In this document: in pieces, positions 40,699 to 47,570 of the stretch
How the letters are laid out: each line of letters begins with the position of its first letter
How positions within the stretch are numbered: position 1 is the first letter of the stretch
DNA from: Alphaproteobacteria bacterium
Lineage (GTDB): Bacteria; Pseudomonadota; Alphaproteobacteria; Thalassobaculales; Thalassobaculaceae
Length of the DNA: 64,000 nucleotides
Assembly: GCA_024742275.1 (NCBI GenBank)
Contig: JANSYS010000003.1
Coordinates: forward strand, 186,001 to 250,000
Direction of reading: 5' to 3'
Notes under the pieces: model-generated
Database searches by the model: none
What the model was told of the DNA's origin: nothing
The model's input: only the letters and a program-made list of their open reading frames with translations
Program-made: the position numbers and the translations under genes

Positions 40699-41277
40699 TC
40701 AGTAGTATTCGGGCATGCCACCGGCGGCGCGGACTTCGCGCACCTCGGGGATGTAGTGGCGCAGCATGTTCTCGATCCCCATCTTCAGGGTCGCCGTCGA
40801 GCTGGGACAGCCGGCGCACGCGCCCTGCATGGTCAGGGTGACGACCCCATCGTCGAACCCGTGGAAGACGATGTCGCCCCCATCCATGGCGACCGCCGGC
40901 CGCACGCGGGTATCGAGCAGTTCCTTGATCTGGGAGACCACCTCCTCATCCTCCGGCCGCACCTCCGCCTCGGCGGCTTCGACCGCGCCGTCGGCCAAGA
41001 TAGGCTTGCCGGCGACAAAGTGCTCCATGATGACGCCGAGCACCGCAGGCTTCATCAGGTACCATTCCTTGTCGTCACGTTTGGAGACACTGATAAACTC
41101 GTTCGCCAGGAACACGGTCGTCACACCATCGACCTCGAAGAGGGCGGCGGCGAGGGGCGACCCGGCGGCCGCTTCGTCCTCCGACTTGAACTCGGCGGTT
41201 CCGCTCATCATAACGGTGCGTCCCGGCAGGAACTTGAGCGTCGCCGGATTTGGGGTCTCTTCGGTCTGAATGAACAT
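40699..41277 (-). CDS. NifU/Nfu-type iron-sulfur scaffold protein
   Basis: 192 residues. The N-terminal Nfu_N domain has FIQTEETPNPATLKFLPGR and FLANEFISVSK. The C-terminal NifU domain has RPAVAMDGGDIVF and the cluster-binding CAGC (VTLTMQGACAGCPSS). It carries and delivers Fe-S clusters. It is monocistronic and divergent from the cyclase gene, with its ATG at 41277. Confidence 0.95.
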   Translation of the reverse strand: MFIQTEETPNPATLKFLPGRTVMMSGTAEFKSEDEAAAGSPLAAALFEVDGVTTVFLANEFISVSKRDDKEWYLMKPAVLGVIMEHFVAGKPILADGAVEAAEAEVRPEDEEVVSQIKELLDTRVRPAVAMDGGDIVFHGFDDGVVTLTMQGACAGCPSSTATLKMGIENMLRHYIPEVREVRAAGGMPEYY

Positions 41278-41367: not shown

Positions 41368-42732
41368 ATGACGTCAAGGCAGCCGCCCGCCGACGACACC
41401 GATGCCGGACGCGCACGGACCGACGATATCGCCGCTTCGGCACAATCCTCGCACACGCCTTCCCGCATCTTGGGGCCGCGGAACGAGGAGGCGCGACGGC
41501 TGGTCCTCAACCTGGAAGACGACGACGACAGCGGAATGCCGCCGATAGATCCGACCGTCACCCCCCTGCAATGGCTCCTCAAGGATTCCGCCGTCTACAC
41601 CTCGCGCCAGTATCTCGCCCGCGATCTCGGACGGATTCTGGTGGCGCGAGGCTTCCCGCTCATGCGCATGACCTACTTCATCACGACGCTGCATCCGCAG
41701 GCGACGGGGACCTCGATCATCTGGTACCGCGACGGCGACACGCCGAGCCAGTGGCGGGTCATGCGCGGCATGCAGCAAACCGACGCCTATAAACGGAGCC
41801 CCCTGCCCCTGATCTTCGAGGGTGCCCAAGGCATCCGCCGACGCCTCGACATGGAAGGCGAGCAGAACGATTTTCCAATTCTGGACGACCTGAGGACGGA
41901 GGGCGCGACGGACTACGTGGCCATGCCGCTGGTGTTCTCCGACGGCAACATCAACTTCACCACCTGGACAGCGGACCGTCCCGGCGGGTTCAGCACCGAA
42001 GAGCTGCGGGAAATCTGGGAACTCATGCCGGCCCTGTCGCTGCGCATGGAAATGCTGGAACGGCGCGATCTGACCCGTCAGCTGCTGACCACCTATCTGG
42101 GCCGCAACACCGGCGAGCGCATCCTCGCGGGCGAGATCGTCCGCGGCGTGGCGGAAGGGATCCGGGCGGCGGTCTGGTACACCGACATCCGCGACTTCAC
42201 CACCTTGTCCGACGAGCGGAGCCGCGACGAGATCATAGACATGCTCGACGCCTTCTTCGAACGCGCGGTGCAGGCCGTCGAGGAGCGCGGCGGGGAGGTC
42301 TTGAAGTTCCTCGGCGACGGAATGCTGGCGATCTTCCCGGCCGATCCGACGCGCAGCCAGGCGGAGGGAGACGCGGAGGCCTGCCGCCTGGCCCTGGCGG
42401 CGGCACGCGACACGGTCACCCTCGTCAATACTCTCAACGCCCAGCGCCGGCGTCAGCGGAAGCCGGAGATCGACTTCGGAATCGCCCTGCATCTCGGAGA
42501 GGTCGGCTACGGATATATCGGCGGCGCGGAACGGCTCGACTTCACGGTGATCGGCCCCGCCGTCAACCTCGCCAACCGGATCGAGGGTCTCACGAGCACG
42601 CTTGGCGCCTCGATCCTGACGTCGCACGAGTTCGCTGACGCCGTCGACGAGCGGCTGACCGGTCTCGGCGCCCATCCGGTCAAGGGCCTCCAGCGGCCGA
42701 TCGACGTCTTTACGCCGCCCGCGCCCTCGTGA
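41368..42732 (+). CDS. Class III adenylate/guanylate cyclase with N-terminal sensory domain
   Basis: 454 residues. After a polar start comes a GAF-like region (about 65-235) containing YLARDLGRILVARGFPLMRM and DYVAMPLVFSDG. The catalytic domain (about 260-450) has WYTDIRDFTTLSD (both metal Asp), EVLKFLGDGMLAIF (Lys that selects adenine), ERLDFTVIGPAVNLANRIEG (Asp, transition-state Asn and Arg). All key residues are present, so an active, probably cAMP-forming, soluble enzyme is likely. Its TGA overlaps the GTG start of the next gene, an MVF flippase. A TTG at 41353 is an alternative start. Confidence 0.92.
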   Translation: MTSRQPPADDTDAGRARTDDIAASAQSSHTPSRILGPRNEEARRLVLNLEDDDDSGMPPIDPTVTPLQWLLKDSAVYTSRQYLARDLGRILVARGFPLMRMTYFITTLHPQATGTSIIWYRDGDTPSQWRVMRGMQQTDAYKRSPLPLIFEGAQGIRRRLDMEGEQNDFPILDDLRTEGATDYVAMPLVFSDGNINFTTWTADRPGGFSTEELREIWELMPALSLRMEMLERRDLTRQLLTTYLGRNTGERILAGEIVRGVAEGIRAAVWYTDIRDFTTLSDERSRDEIIDMLDAFFERAVQAVEERGGEVLKFLGDGMLAIFPADPTRSQAEGDAEACRLALAAARDTVTLVNTLNAQRRRQRKPEIDFGIALHLGEVGYGYIGGAERLDFTVIGPAVNLANRIEGLTSTLGASILTSHEFADAVDERLTGLGAHPVKGLQRPIDVFTPPAPS

Positions 42733-44084
42733 CCCTGCCGGACCGCCCCAACGCTCCAACGCCCATCCTGGGCATGGACGACCGGGCCGTGGCACGGGCC
42801 GGAGCGACCATCGCGATCCTGTCGATCCTGGCCAAGTCCTCCGCCTTCGTCCGCGAGGCCGCGATCGCGATGATCTACGGCCGCGGGCCGGAGGTGGACG
42901 CGTTCTTCGTCGCCCTGGCCTTGCCGGTCTTCCTGGTGCAGCTCATCGCCGGTTCGTTCCAGATCGCCGTCGTACCCGGCCTGCTGGCGGCGCGCCGGAC
43001 CGGGGGTCACGGTCGCGCCTCCGCCCTCGCCGGATCGGGCGCCCTGACCGTCTCGGTCGCGGTCGCGGCCATCGCGCTCCTCACCGCGGCCACCGCACCT
43101 CTCTATCTGCCGCTGGTCGCGCCGGGCTTTTCTGAACGCGCGGTCGTGCTGGCCGCCGACATGCTGTGGATCATGACCCTGTTCGCGATCTTCGGCGGTC
43201 TGGCCTATGCCGGCGGCGCCATGCTGACGGCGGAACGCCGCTTCGCGCTCCCGGCCATCGCGCCGGCGCTGACCCCGCTGATGATGACCGTGCTTCTGAT
43301 CGCCTACCGCGAGCAGCTCGGCGTGACTGCGCTCGCGTGGGGCGCGGTGCTGGGAACACTGGCGGAGGCCGCGATCGTGCTCTGGGCAGCCCGGCGGCTC
43401 GGCTACCGGCCCAGGTTCGCGATCTCGCCCGACGACCTGCGGGATCTGGGTCGGCGCTGGGGTCCGCTGATGCTGGCCACGCTCCTGCTGTCGGGCGCCG
43501 GGCTGATCGACCAGCTGATGGCCGCTTCTCTCGGGCCCGGCTCGGCCTCGGCTCTCGGCTATGGCGCCAAGCTGGTGCTCGCGGGGCTGCACGTCGTCAC
43601 CACGGCGCTCGGGATCTCCGTGCTGCCGGCCTACGCAGCAAGCGCCCTGGACGACCCGCATCGGCTTCTGGCCCGCCTGAACCGACACCTGATCGCCGTG
43701 ATCCTGCTTGCCTTGCCGGGAGTCGCCATCGCCTGGCTGCTGTCGGAACCGGTGATCGCGCTGCTGTATCAGCGCGGCGCCTTCACAGCCGAAGACACCC
43801 GCCTCGTCGCCGGCGTGCTGTCGGCCTACGCAACCCAGCTGCCGGCTTTCGCCGCCGTCGTCATCCTGGTGCGGGCCGCCGCCGTGCTCAGTCTCGGCTG
43901 GGTGATCCCGACCGCCGCCGCCGTCAACATGGTGCTGACCGTCGCGCTGAACGCCGTGTTCATGCAGTTCTGGGGCGTGATCGGCATCGCACTGGCGACC
44001 GCTCCGGCCTTCGCGGCGACGGGCACGGTCCTGTACGCCGGGATCGTCGCCGGCTACGGCCGCAGGAAGCCGACCGTCTCGTAG
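42729..44084 (+). CDS. MVF (MurJ/Wzx-like) family lipid flippase, divergent paralogue
   Basis: 451 residues with about 12-14 membrane helices. It begins like Mur[20 protein letters not shown] and [12 protein letters not shown]. The next MurJ signature, which holds an essential Arg (FRRxxxEGA), is replaced by [34 protein letters not shown] is kept. A bona fide murJ lies 2 kb away, so this copy probably flips another lipid-linked substrate (inference). The GTG start overlaps the cyclase stop by 4 bases, so the two are translationally coupled. The 3' end overlaps trpS by 31 bases. Confidence 0.85.
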
Positions 44085-45058
44085 ACCTCGTCGACAATGG
44101 GCTTCGCGAGCGCGCGGGCCCGGTTTCCGCCCTCGGCCAGCACGCCGTCGATATGGCCCGGGTCGGCCATCAGCTTCTGCAGTTCCGCGCCGATCGGTCC
44201 GAGAACGCCGACCGCCAGTTCGGCCAGCGCCGGCTTGAATTTGCCGAATCCCTGGCCGCCGAACTCGGACAGAACATCACTAACGGTACGATCGGCGAGA
44301 GCCGCGTAGATCGTCACCAGGTTTCGCGCCTCCGGCCGCTCGATCAGCCCCGCCGCCTCGCTCGGCAGCGGCTCCGGGTCGGTCTTCGCCTTCTTGATCT
44401 TGTTGGCGATCGTATCGGCGTCGTCGGTCATGTTGATGCGCGACATGTCGGACGCATCCGACTTGCTCATCTTCTTGCTGCCGTCGCGCAGGCTCATCAC
44501 CCGGGTCGCCTCTCCCAGGATCTGCGGCTCCGGCAGCGGAAAGAACTCGACGCCGAACATTGAGTTGTAGGCCTGGGCGATATCGCGCGACAGTTCCAGG
44601 TGCTGCTTCTGGTCGTCGCCGACCGGCACATGGGTCCCCTTGTAGGCGAGGATGTCGGCGGCCATCAGCACCGGATACCACCAAAGGCCCGTGGTCGCGT
44701 TGTCCCGATCCTTGCCGGCCTTGTCCTTGAACTGGGTCATGCGATTCAACCAGCCCACCCGCGCCACGCACCCGAGCACCCAGGCCAGACGCACATGCTC
44801 GGCGACCTGGGATTGGTTGAACAGGATGGCCTCTTTAGGATCGATGCCTGCCGCGATCAGGCTGGCGGCCACCTCGCGGGTCGCCTGGCGGAGTTCGGCC
44901 GGATCCTGCGGAATGGTGATCGCGTGCTGGTCGACCACGCAGAAGATGCATTCGTAGCTTTTCTCGCCCTGCAAGGTCACCCAATTCCGGATCGCGCCCA
45001 GATAGTTTCCGAGGGTGAGGTTTCCGGTCGGCTGAATGCCGGAGAAGATGCGTCTCAT
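44054..45058 (-). CDS. trpS: Tryptophanyl-tRNA synthetase
   Basis: 334 residues, a class I synthetase. [20 protein letters not shown] carries the HIGH-like motif; [20 protein letters not shown] and KKMSKSD (the KMSKS loop) follow. The C-terminal helical region is complete. Its 3' end runs 31 bases into the tail of the flippase gene on the other strand, an unusual but clear convergent overlap. Confidence 0.96.
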
Positions 45059-45198
45059 GGATCAGGAACTCGCGATCAGCTAGGGTGCGTTCGGGAACCG
45101 TCACGGACGGCCGTGGCCGGTTTATCCCCGGCCCGCGGCCGCAAATCAAGCATCCGTCGACCGCCGTGTCTCCCACCCACCCGCAGACGGATGCCGCG

Positions 45199-46026
45199 AT
45201 GATCAGAATCCTCGACAGCGTGAACGACCCGGGCAGGGGGCGGGATTCGGAGGATCGGGTTGGCGCCGCAGCGGATCATGGCGTGGCCTGGGTCCTGGAC
45301 GGCGCGACCGATATCTGTGCCGCCCGGCTGGTCCCCGACGCTCCCAGCGATGCCCATTGGTTTGCCGAGACCGCCCATGCGGTTCTGCAGGAACTAGGCG
45401 GCGGACCGTCGGAGAGGATCGTCGCCGCGCTCATCGACCGATTGCGGGATGCGCTGGAGGAACGGGCGGGCCGAGCTGTGCAGGACATCCCGCCGGGCGA
45501 TATGCCGAGCGCCGCCCTGACCCGCATGACGGTCGATCCGGCAGCCGGAACGCTCACCTTCTGCGGGGATCCCGATTGCACGGCGCTGATCCTGCCGCCG
45601 GCGGGCGACGGGTTCGCCGTTGAGAAACCGCCGGCCCCGCGCGACGAGCAGAAGCAGGCACGGCGCCTTCTGTCTTCGGGGGCCGATATCGCCGCGGCGC
45701 TGCGGGCCGACCGATCGATGATGAATCGTCCGGATGGGTATCCGGTGCTCAGCGTGCACAGCGCGGCCGTGGAAAGGCTCGACCGTCGGACAGTGCGGGC
45801 GGAACCGGGGACCCGAGTCCTGCTCTGTACGGACGGGCTCTACCGCTTGGTCGAAATGTACGCGCTGTTCGACGACGCCGGGCTGATTCGAGCCGCATCC
45901 GAGGAGGGTCTCGACCGACTGATCGACCGGCTGCGCGGTTTCGAGGCCGATGCCGCCGACGACATACGCTTCGGCCGGTTCAAGACCTCCGACGACGCGG
46001 CGGCACTGCTTCTGGAACTGGTCTAG
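45199..46026 (+). CDS. PP2C-type serine/threonine phosphatase
   Basis: 275 residues. PPM/PP2C motifs are DSVNDPGRGRDSEDR, VAWVLDGATDI (metal Asp), TRMTVDPAAGTLTFCGDPDC, VLLCTDGLYRL and the final KTSDDAAALLLELV. It probably dephosphorylates Ser/Thr or a signalling protein. No kinase gene is nearby. The ATG at 45199 fits the family; longer frames upstream do not. It converges on murJ with a 4-base overlap. Confidence 0.88.
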   Translation: MIRILDSVNDPGRGRDSEDRVGAAADHGVAWVLDGATDICAARLVPDAPSDAHWFAETAHAVLQELGGGPSERIVAALIDRLRDALEERAGRAVQDIPPGDMPSAALTRMTVDPAAGTLTFCGDPDCTALILPPAGDGFAVEKPPAPRDEQKQARRLLSSGADIAAALRADRSMMNRPDGYPVLSVHSAAVERLDRRTVRAEPGTRVLLCTDGLYRLVEMYALFDDAGLIRAASEEGLDRLIDRLRGFEADAADDIRFGRFKTSDDAAALLLELV

Positions 46027-47570
46027 CCGCCGGATCGGCGCATCAGGCGCAGATCGCCTGGCCGGAGGGCTCCCGACCCAAGGCAGGCGGCGGCATAGAC
46101 CATCAGGCCGACAATGACTAGCCCGGCCAGGGACAACACCTTCTCGAGAGCGCCCGCGGCAAGCCAAGGGGCGGCCCAGGAAGCCAGGAACCAGAGTGCT
46201 ATGCCCATCGCCGATGCCGCCAGGACGATCCGAGGCGCTCTTGTCGCCAAGCGCGCGTCCACCAGAAGATGCCCCCGCCGCCAGAGCAGCACCGCCAACA
46301 GTGCGGCGTTCAGCCAGGACGAGATCACCGTCGACAACGCGATGCCGACCTGATCGTAGAGCGGCAGGAGAACGGCGTTGCAGGCGAGATTCGCCGCGAC
46401 CGCCGCCGCCGCGACCTTGACCGGGGTCGCCGTGTCCTCGCGCGCGAAGAAACCGGGCTGGAACACCTTGATCAGAACGAAGGCGGGCAGGCCGGCGGCG
46501 TAGGCGGCGAGCGTCATGGCGGTCTGGTAGCCGTCGACTTCGGTGAAGGCGCCGCGCTCGAACAAGACCGTGATCACCGGTTCGGCGATTACCGCCAGCG
46601 CCACCGCCGCCGGGACGGTCAGCAGAAGGGCGATCTCCAGCGCCCGATTCTGGGTACCGATCGCCTCCGCCGTCGATCCCGCGCGCACCTGGCGGGACAG
46701 CATCGGCAGCAGGGCCGTCCCGATCGCCACGCCGACCACGCCGAGGGGAAGCTGAACAACCCGGTCGGCGTAGTAGAGGTAAGAGACGGAGCCGGCCGGC
46801 AACAGGGAGGCGAGCAGGATGCCGATGAAGGCGTTGACCTGGACCACCCCGGCGCCGAGCGCGGCGGGGGCCATCAGAATCAGCAACTTCTTGACCTGAG
46901 GCGTTAGCCGAGGACGGACCAGCGGCGGCAGCGCGTCCTCTCGCCGGCAGGCGACGGCGACGAACAGCGCCTGGGCGACGCCGGCAGCCGCCACCCCCCA
47001 GGCGAGAACATGGCCCGGCGTCTCCAACGCCCCGGCGGCGGTCGCCAGAGCGGTGATGAGGATCAGGTTCAACAGGATCGGCGCGGCCGCCATCGCCCAG
47101 AACCTACCGAGGCTGTTCAACATCCCGCCCCAGAGCGCGACCAGGGAGATCAGCGGCAGGTAGGGGAAGGTGATCCGGGTGAGCTCGACCGCCAGGTCGT
47201 AGCGCAGTGCCTCGTCGGCGAATCCGGGCGCCATCACCAGGATCACCCCGGGCATGGCGAGTTCAGCCGCCACGACCAGCGCCAGCAACGCCATCAGCAG
47301 GACGGACTGGACTTGGCCGGCGAACGCGACGGCAGCCTGCTTGCCCTTGGTCTCGACCAGGCCGGCGAACATTGGGACGAAGGCGACGGTCAGCGCGCCC
47401 TCACCGGTCAATCGGCGGAAGAAGTTGGGAATCTGGAAGGCGACGAAAAACGCGTCCGCGGCGGGTCCGGCACCGACCACGGCAGCGATAAGCATGTCGC
47501 GCACGAAGCCCGTCACCCGGCTGATCATGGTGAAGCCGCCGACGGTGGCGATGGCGCGCGCGAGGTTCAT
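46023..47570 (-). CDS. murJ: Lipid II flippase MurJ
   Basis: 515 residues with 14 membrane helices. It flips lipid II across the inner membrane for peptidoglycan synthesis. MurJ landmarks are TMISRVTGFVRDMLIAAVVG, ADAFFVAFQIPNFFRRLTGE (essential Asp and Arg) and GALTVAFVPMFAG. YYADRVVQLPLGVVGVAIGT and LFERGAFTEVDG are also present. It is probably co-transcribed with glnD upstream (95-base gap). Confidence 0.94.
   Translation of the reverse strand: MNLARAIATVGGFTMISRVTGFVRDMLIAAVVGAGPAADAFFVAFQIPNFFRRLTGEGALTVAFVPMFAGLVETKGKQAAVAFAGQVQSVLLMALLALVVAAELAMPGVILVMAPGFADEALRYDLAVELTRITFPYLPLISLVALWGGMLNSLGRFWAMAAAPILLNLILITALATAAGALETPGHVLAWGVAAAGVAQALFVAVACRREDALPPLVRPRLTPQVKKLLILMAPAALGAGVVQVNAFIGILLASLLPAGSVSYLYYADRVVQLPLGVVGVAIGTALLPMLSRQVRAGSTAEAIGTQNRALEIALLLTVPAAVALAVIAEPVITVLFERGAFTEVDGYQTAMTLAAYAAGLPAFVLIKVFQPGFFAREDTATPVKVAAAAVAANLACNAVLLPLYDQVGIALSTVISSWLNAALLAVLLWRRGHLLVDARLATRAPRIVLAASAMGIALWFLASWAAPWLAAGALEKVLSLAGLVIVGLMVYAAACLGSGALRPGDLRLMRRSGG

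Follow-up and report, generated by a model that had tools for sequence, protein, structure and literature searches.

A MurJ-like flippase gene outside the MurJ clade lies behind a class III cyclase gene between nfu and trpS in Thalassobaculaceae

Organization of the locus

The window, a 64,000-nucleotide stretch of contig JANSYS010000003.1 from a genome of the Thalassobaculum group, carries a class III nucleotidyl cyclase gene that is followed closely, on the same strand, by a gene for a MurJ-like flippase. Both reading frames are present where the earlier note on this DNA had placed them, and the true murJ that it had mentioned in the vicinity lies on the far side of trpS. The features of interest are the following, in window coordinates:

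40699..41277, minus strand: nfu (NifU-like scaffold), divergent neighbour delimiting the conserved locus on one side (PF08712, PF01106, synteny)
41368..42732, plus strand: class III nucleotidyl cyclase, 454 aa (PF00211 at 40.5 bits, catalytic residues, model)
42729..42732, plus strand: GTGA, in which the cyclase stop overlaps a possible GTG start of the flippase (sequence, comparison of starts)
42729..44084, plus strand: 12-TM flippase of the MVF family (PF03023), 451 aa, not MurJ
44054..45058, minus strand: trpS, convergent neighbour (PF00579, synteny)
46023..47570, minus strand: true murJ, 515 aa (TIGR01695 at 439.5 bits, cut-off 235.55; inside the MurJ clade)

The order of genes at the locus is rimI, tsaB, polysaccharide deacetylase, a glucosaminidase-type gene, nfu, cyclase, flippase, trpS, a SpoIIE/PP2C-like gene, murJ and glnD; names were assigned by Pfam scan except for rimI, tsaB and glnD, which are what we take these neighbours to be. 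The genome has 11 matches to PF00211 and two to PF03023, and its named relatives comprise the type strain T. litoreum DSM 18839, which has the gene pair too, T. fulvum KCTC 42651, alpha proteobacterium BAL199 and four MAG contigs. The 3' ends of the flippase gene and trpS overlap by 31 bases on opposite strands (44054-44084). In a similar manner, the SpoIIE/PP2C-like gene between trpS and murJ (45085-46026) overlaps murJ by 4 bases; it is present in L055, L056, L057 and L060, and gives no match in L058 and L059 at E<=1e-8.

Spacing, expression signals and selection

The 4-base overlap of the cyclase stop with the flippase gene exists only if the flippase starts at GTG, and an alternative in-frame ATG is found 45 bases downstream, at 42774. 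The same -4 arrangement is seen in four of the eight orthologous loci (G000, G003, G004, G026), the spacing in the other four being +39, +7, +6 and +7; in G088, a genome of another family, it is +33. What is conserved is therefore the close co-directional spacing and not the overlap itself. The earlier note had read the overlap as evidence that the two proteins are made together. With the GTG start the overlap stands, but it is shared by only half of the loci, and translational coupling of cyclase and flippase is what we infer from the arrangement of the two frames. A sigma-70-type scan of the locus gave no promoter-like site and a terminator scan gave 2 sites versus 1.8 in shuffles; neither result carries weight either way. 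At the level of selection, pairwise NG86 omega values range from 0.11 to 0.28 for the flippase (4 pairs), from 0.16 to 0.25 for the cyclase (4 pairs) and from 0.14 to 0.32 for murJ (3 pairs). All three genes are therefore maintained, with cyclase and flippase under purifying selection.

The cyclase

The product of the first gene belongs to the class III nucleotidyl cyclases, as manifested by its PF00211 match (40.5 bits against a cut-off of 21.9), by the fold of its catalytic domain and by its catalytic residues. In class III enzymes catalysis depends on two metal-binding Asp residues and an Asn/Arg pair, and the base is recognized by Lys and Thr/Asp. The corresponding D273, K313, D317, T393, N400 and R404 are invariant across the 8 orthologues and also align with the cyclases of known structure, in agreement with the previous claim that the catalytic residues are kept. 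K313 and T393 align with the equivalent residues of P. aeruginosa CyaB. The guanylyl cyclase Cya2 carries Glu and Gly at these positions, which makes ATP the more probable substrate, and the enzyme is predicted to be an adenylate rather than a guanylate cyclase.

The structural model (mean pLDDT 66.8, pTM 0.47) places an N-terminal domain at about 60-205, a long linking helix at 210-248 and the catalytic domain at about 260-454. It matches class III cyclases over 259-454 (best Z 20.1, 179 residues, 3.2 A), and the catalytic fold resembles that of the soluble class III adenylate cyclases CyaB of P. aeruginosa (3r5g), to which the aligned residues are also similar, and CyaC of S. platensis (1wc1). 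Unlike in these two enzymes, the N-terminal domain has no match in the Pfam scan. Its alpha/beta order and the long helix that follows, as modelled at this quality, suggest a sensory domain; the fold search barely probed this part, and the model is too weak to name a GAF-type or any other fold.

Placement of the flippase outside MurJ

The second gene encodes a member of the MVF family of the MOP superfamily, with a PF03023 score of 168.8 bits (cut-off 27.4) and a model (pTM 0.75) whose best PDB matches are MurJ, followed by MATE and WzxE. With MurJ, the lipid II flippase, it shares this family, the MOP fold (7wax, TMq 0.83), R24 and D39. Nevertheless, it reaches only 179.3 bits with the MurJ equivalog TIGR01695, below the cut-off of 235.55 that the neighbouring murJ largely exceeds. 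The earlier note had reported a change in the Arg-containing segment, and this is borne out by the orthologues: E. coli position 52 is V or L in 8/8 flippases (V in the window) and R in 58/58 MurJ proteins. In E. coli numbering, the eight flippases have K18, R24, E25, D39, V/L52, A/T269, K270 and L273, whereas R24, D25, D39, R52 and R270 are found in all 58 MurJ proteins and R18 in 57 of them. To the changes listed previously can thus be added D269 to A/T, R270 to K, E273 to L, R18 to K, D25 to E and the absence of TM13-14. Only 7-13 residues remain from E. coli position 431 on in 8/8 flippases, versus 81 in E. coli MurJ, and hydropathy counts give 12 TM segments in the 3 orthologues counted (the window included), 11 in G088 and 14 in E. 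coli.

The passages of PMC4790310 that deal with the MurJ cavity give R18, R24, R52, R270 and D39 as essential, and those of PMC9973255 describe the cavity arginines as essential and MurJ as a 14-TM protein in which TM13-14 form the groove thought to hold the lipid tail. In the passages of PMC4790310, R52 and D39 are dispensable in B. cenocepacia BCAL2764, so that loss of R52 alone would prove little. By alignment, the window flippase departs from the essential set, with K, R and V at positions 18, 24 and 52, K at 270 and D at 39, and it is predicted to lack the 14-TM arrangement with its TM13-14 groove.

The phylogeny points in the same direction. A tree of 77 MVF proteins unites the 8 Thalassobaculaceae flippases with that of G088 in one clade (100/98), which shares its side of the tree with 9 other MVF proteins, while the 59 MurJ proteins (the 58 plus E. 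coli) are separated from the flippases by a branch of length 3.79 with 100/100 support. Long branches in several non-MurJ rows prompted a warning from the program; both splits were kept in a rebuild by a quick method without six long-branch rows (SH-aLRT 100 and 92). When the flippases were forced together with the 6 Thalassobaculaceae MurJ proteins, the topology was rejected (p-AU 1.1e-65). By this placement the flippase belongs outside the MurJ clade, so the outcome that the earlier note had named as speaking against its reading, clustering inside MurJ, was not obtained, and its proposal of a MurJ-like flippase distinct from MurJ is upheld by the equivalog score, the 100/100 split and the loss of residues and of TM13-14. 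The same value of p-AU rejects an origin of the flippase by recent tandem duplication of the neighbouring murJ. Pairs of MurJ-like genes side by side on one contig are seen in small alphaproteobacterial genomes (L032 of G048, G040, G163 and G251).

A comparison with Wzx of the PST family was also carried out. The MOP fold is again shared (WzxE 9g95, TMq 0.65) and an analogous job is proposed for both, but the window flippase has no match to PF01943 at E<=0.1. Canonical Wzx gives no PF01943 match in G000, either; E<=0.001 matches were obtained in 9 of 12 genomes, in 6 of them above the cut-off, and murJ lies at three of the PF01943 places listed.

Relatives of the flippase and probable substrate

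Since the flippase lies outside MurJ, it probably moves another lipid-linked glycan, and the previous suggestion of a different lipid-bound sugar is probable to this extent. The genes that surround its relatives are relevant here. Six of the 9 other MVF rows of the tree are located in polysaccharide-type loci. That of G063 neighbours a glycosyltransferase and an asparagine synthase gene; that of G114 adjoins an LPG-synthase-type membrane protein and has a glycosyltransferase some 4 kb away; that of G210 has a UDP-sugar dehydrogenase and a NusG-type factor (Pfam) as neighbours, with the same genes by eye in G294; that of G441 lies with glycosyltransferase, epimerase, UDP-sugar dehydrogenase and SLBB/Poly_export genes; and that of G485 has a sugar transferase. 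Among the remaining rows, a methyltransferase adjoins the MVF gene in G383 and G241, the two examined for neighbours, G316 having been left out. The MVF gene of G779, whose product was left out of the tree, lies with genes for dTDP-sugar epimerase, dehydratase and asparagine synthase. These proteins resemble the window flippase in their side of the tree, in the absence of Arg at position 52 (9/9 rows) and in their length, as 8/9 end no more than 26 residues from E. coli position 431 (L111 of G485 extends 61 beyond it). They differ from it in having glycosyltransferase, sugar-nucleotide, asparagine-synthase or export genes in their vicinity. A search of stretches of 5 to 17 kb around these other MVF genes turned up no cyclase homologue. 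Altogether, such surroundings support, without proving, a lipid-linked oligosaccharide as the substrate. PslK, which we take to be a further MVF flippase, was not mentioned in the papers listed by a literature search.

A point against this assignment is that, in the window genus, the pair has no gene for polysaccharide synthesis as its immediate neighbour. A GT4 glycosyltransferase gene is situated between flippase and trpS in g3 and g5, and adjoins the flippase gene in g6. It gave no match at E<=1e-30 in the 4 of 6 g1 (window genus) genomes searched or in G088, and L148, L149 and L153 have it in the absence of the flippase; it was consequently not retained as a fixed third member of the unit. 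A GT4 gene also follows trpS in several genera of Thalassobaculaceae, whether cyclase and flippase are present or not (L057:9948-11102, L058:9275-10459, L148, L149, L153).

Distribution of the gene pair

Within the order the flippase is found in 10/36 genomes and 4/12 genera, all from one family. The single flippase genome from another family is G088 (43% identity), whose own order has it in 1/7 genomes; the next closest protein is that of G063 (37%). In a class sample, 17/386 genomes pass E<=1e-34, several of them with proteins that are MurJ by tree. A second class sample yielded 5/389 at E<=1e-42, the new ones with respect to the first being G002, of the window genus, and G779 (32%). In a phylum sample 47/397 pass E<=1e-32, and apart from the window's own flippase none exceeds 30-35% identity. 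The class and phylum samples are overlapping draws from larger groups, and the rarity of the flippase is accordingly a sample estimate.

Wherever the upstream side is visible, the cyclase gene directly precedes the flippase gene: 10/10 cases, made up of 8/8 complete loci, L061, where the contig ends inside the flippase gene, and G088 (L062). G019 was left out of this count because its contig ends inside the gene. This answers the question raised in the earlier note of how often the two genes adjoin, and the pairing is not confined to one strain, being present in Thalassobaculaceae and one other lineage. Restriction to close relatives, which the note had given as an outcome that would refute its reading, is nearly what is observed, with one family and one genome of another. 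Two genomes labelled as the window genus, G001 and G005, are single 1.5 Mb contigs of 99% completeness with one MurJ-level match each; neither the cyclase (E<=1e-65) nor the flippase (E<=1e-34) finds a match in them.

Cyclases at the locus without the flippase

Relatives of the cyclase (P0001) are far from rare, as 114/386 class genomes have one at E<=1e-65. In 32 locus stretches examined, 25 contain the cyclase, 8 with the flippase and 17 without it, and 7 contain neither, with murJ and glnD as the only genes found in L073 and L151. The stretches were chosen for a cyclase close to murJ on one contig or for belonging to the window's family, which makes this an existence count and not a frequency. 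The 17 cyclase-only stretches come from 11 families, including two g2 genomes and one g4 genome of the window's own family, and nfu and trpS flank the cyclase in 16 of them (the contig of L071 ends before nfu). These cyclases share position, orientation and protein family with that of the window; they differ in having no flippase behind them and in not forming one clade. Gene calling in 12 of the gaps that lack the flippase gave no co-directional ORF with a start less than 100 bases behind the cyclase; these gaps are mostly filled by ORFs on the trpS strand. A cyclase in this position therefore needs no flippase.

In the cyclase tree (quick method, 55 rows) the 10 flippase-linked cyclases and 3 unlinked ones of Thalassobaculaceae form one group (SH-aLRT 96), with G088 outermost. 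This topology agrees with a single gain of the flippase that preceded the divergence of the two families, and with later losses; two gains or a transfer are also possible on the tree. Locus cyclases from the other families do not enter this group as a single clade: the 16 rows of locus cyclases without flippase require 9 changes, of which starred branches force at least 7; among the rows labelled as from elsewhere, L100 (G232) is a locus cyclase, and its twin L142 was dropped as identical. Related cyclases may have come to occupy the nfu-trpS site on more than one occasion. As the locus cyclases are not one clade, a cyclase older than the flippase is the simpler reading, not a proven one.

Interpretation

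Gene order, placement of the flippase apart from MurJ, intact cyclase residues, close spacing and purifying selection are direct observations. The explanation that we favour, with somewhat better than even confidence, is that a class III adenylate cyclase gene standing alone between nfu and trpS acquired a polysaccharide-type MVF flippase gene behind it, and that both are probably co-transcribed. The 17 cyclase-only stretches from 11 families and the 12 gaps free of a co-directional ORF support the stand-alone character of the cyclase. Both genes would be transcribed from a promoter before the cyclase gene, the flippase thus being made when the cyclase is made. The flippase, whose transport cavity would keep K/R/K at E. 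coli positions 18/24/270, probably moves a polyprenyl-diphosphate-linked oligosaccharide, and not lipid II, outward. The cyclase would make cAMP from ATP in response to the input of its N-terminal domain, and this cAMP presumably acts on general cAMP receptors, a role that probably predates the arrival of the flippase. The link between both proteins would consist of shared expression and not of gating of transport.

The alternative that survives best, though we hold it to be unlikely, is a positional accident, in which the flippase gene was inserted once between convergent genes and has no functional or expression link to the cyclase. The single locus fits such an event, and so does the fact that genes come and go in the nfu-trpS gap (GT4, and ORFs that by eye resemble UspA and transporter genes). 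It also fits the internal ATG of the window flippase: a promoter inside the cyclase gene is possible, and the flippase of the window genus may use this ATG as a start of its own. Yet the two genes stay on the same strand at -4 to +39 in 8 loci and at +33 in G088 over a large divergence, with little intergenic room.

That the pair is kept as a dedicated module, with cAMP or the cyclase protein itself controlling the flippase or its glycan pathway directly, is less credible still. The flippase is never seen without the upstream cyclase in the 10 visible cases, the spacing is tight, and the pair extends over two families in which the flippases are 43% identical and the cyclases group together. 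However, all cases occupy one corresponding locus and may count as one event, and the family cyclase stands there without the flippase in the 17 stretches mentioned above, three of them from the window's own family. The dedicated second-messenger-linked export advanced in the earlier note is hence not supported: because all pairs lie at one corresponding locus, and cyclases occur there (17/32 stretches, 11 families) and elsewhere without the flippase, the evidence does not carry a cAMP/flippase system. A literature search by title and start of abstract, which mostly excludes subscription papers and is no proof of absence, found no description of a cyclase-flippase gene pair. Improbable, too, is an ancestral cAMP-set export unit of cyclase and flippase, older than the split of the two alphaproteobacterial families, whose patchiness would be explained by repeated loss. 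Finally, a second lipid II flippase, that is, a divergent MurJ paralogue for some special condition, is very unlikely: the PF03023 score, MurJ as the closest fold, the retained R24 and D39 and the replacement of MurJ by Wzk, a MOP flippase outside MurJ, announced in the title of PMC4990322 speak for it, but the protein lies outside MurJ in the tree, scores below the equivalog cut-off, has no TM13-14 and has lost R52, D269 and E273.

The flippase is thus judged to be a polysaccharide-type MVF flippase placed behind a common cyclase. It constitutes a clear case of a protein that Pfam-based annotation would call MurJ, while its residues, length and tree position place it outside and a true murJ exists in the same genome. 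Beyond Thalassobaculaceae, many families of the Alphaproteobacteria have a class III cyclase next to trpS. If the cyclase did control the flippase, the pair would provide a direct second-messenger handle on the export of a lipid-linked glycan.
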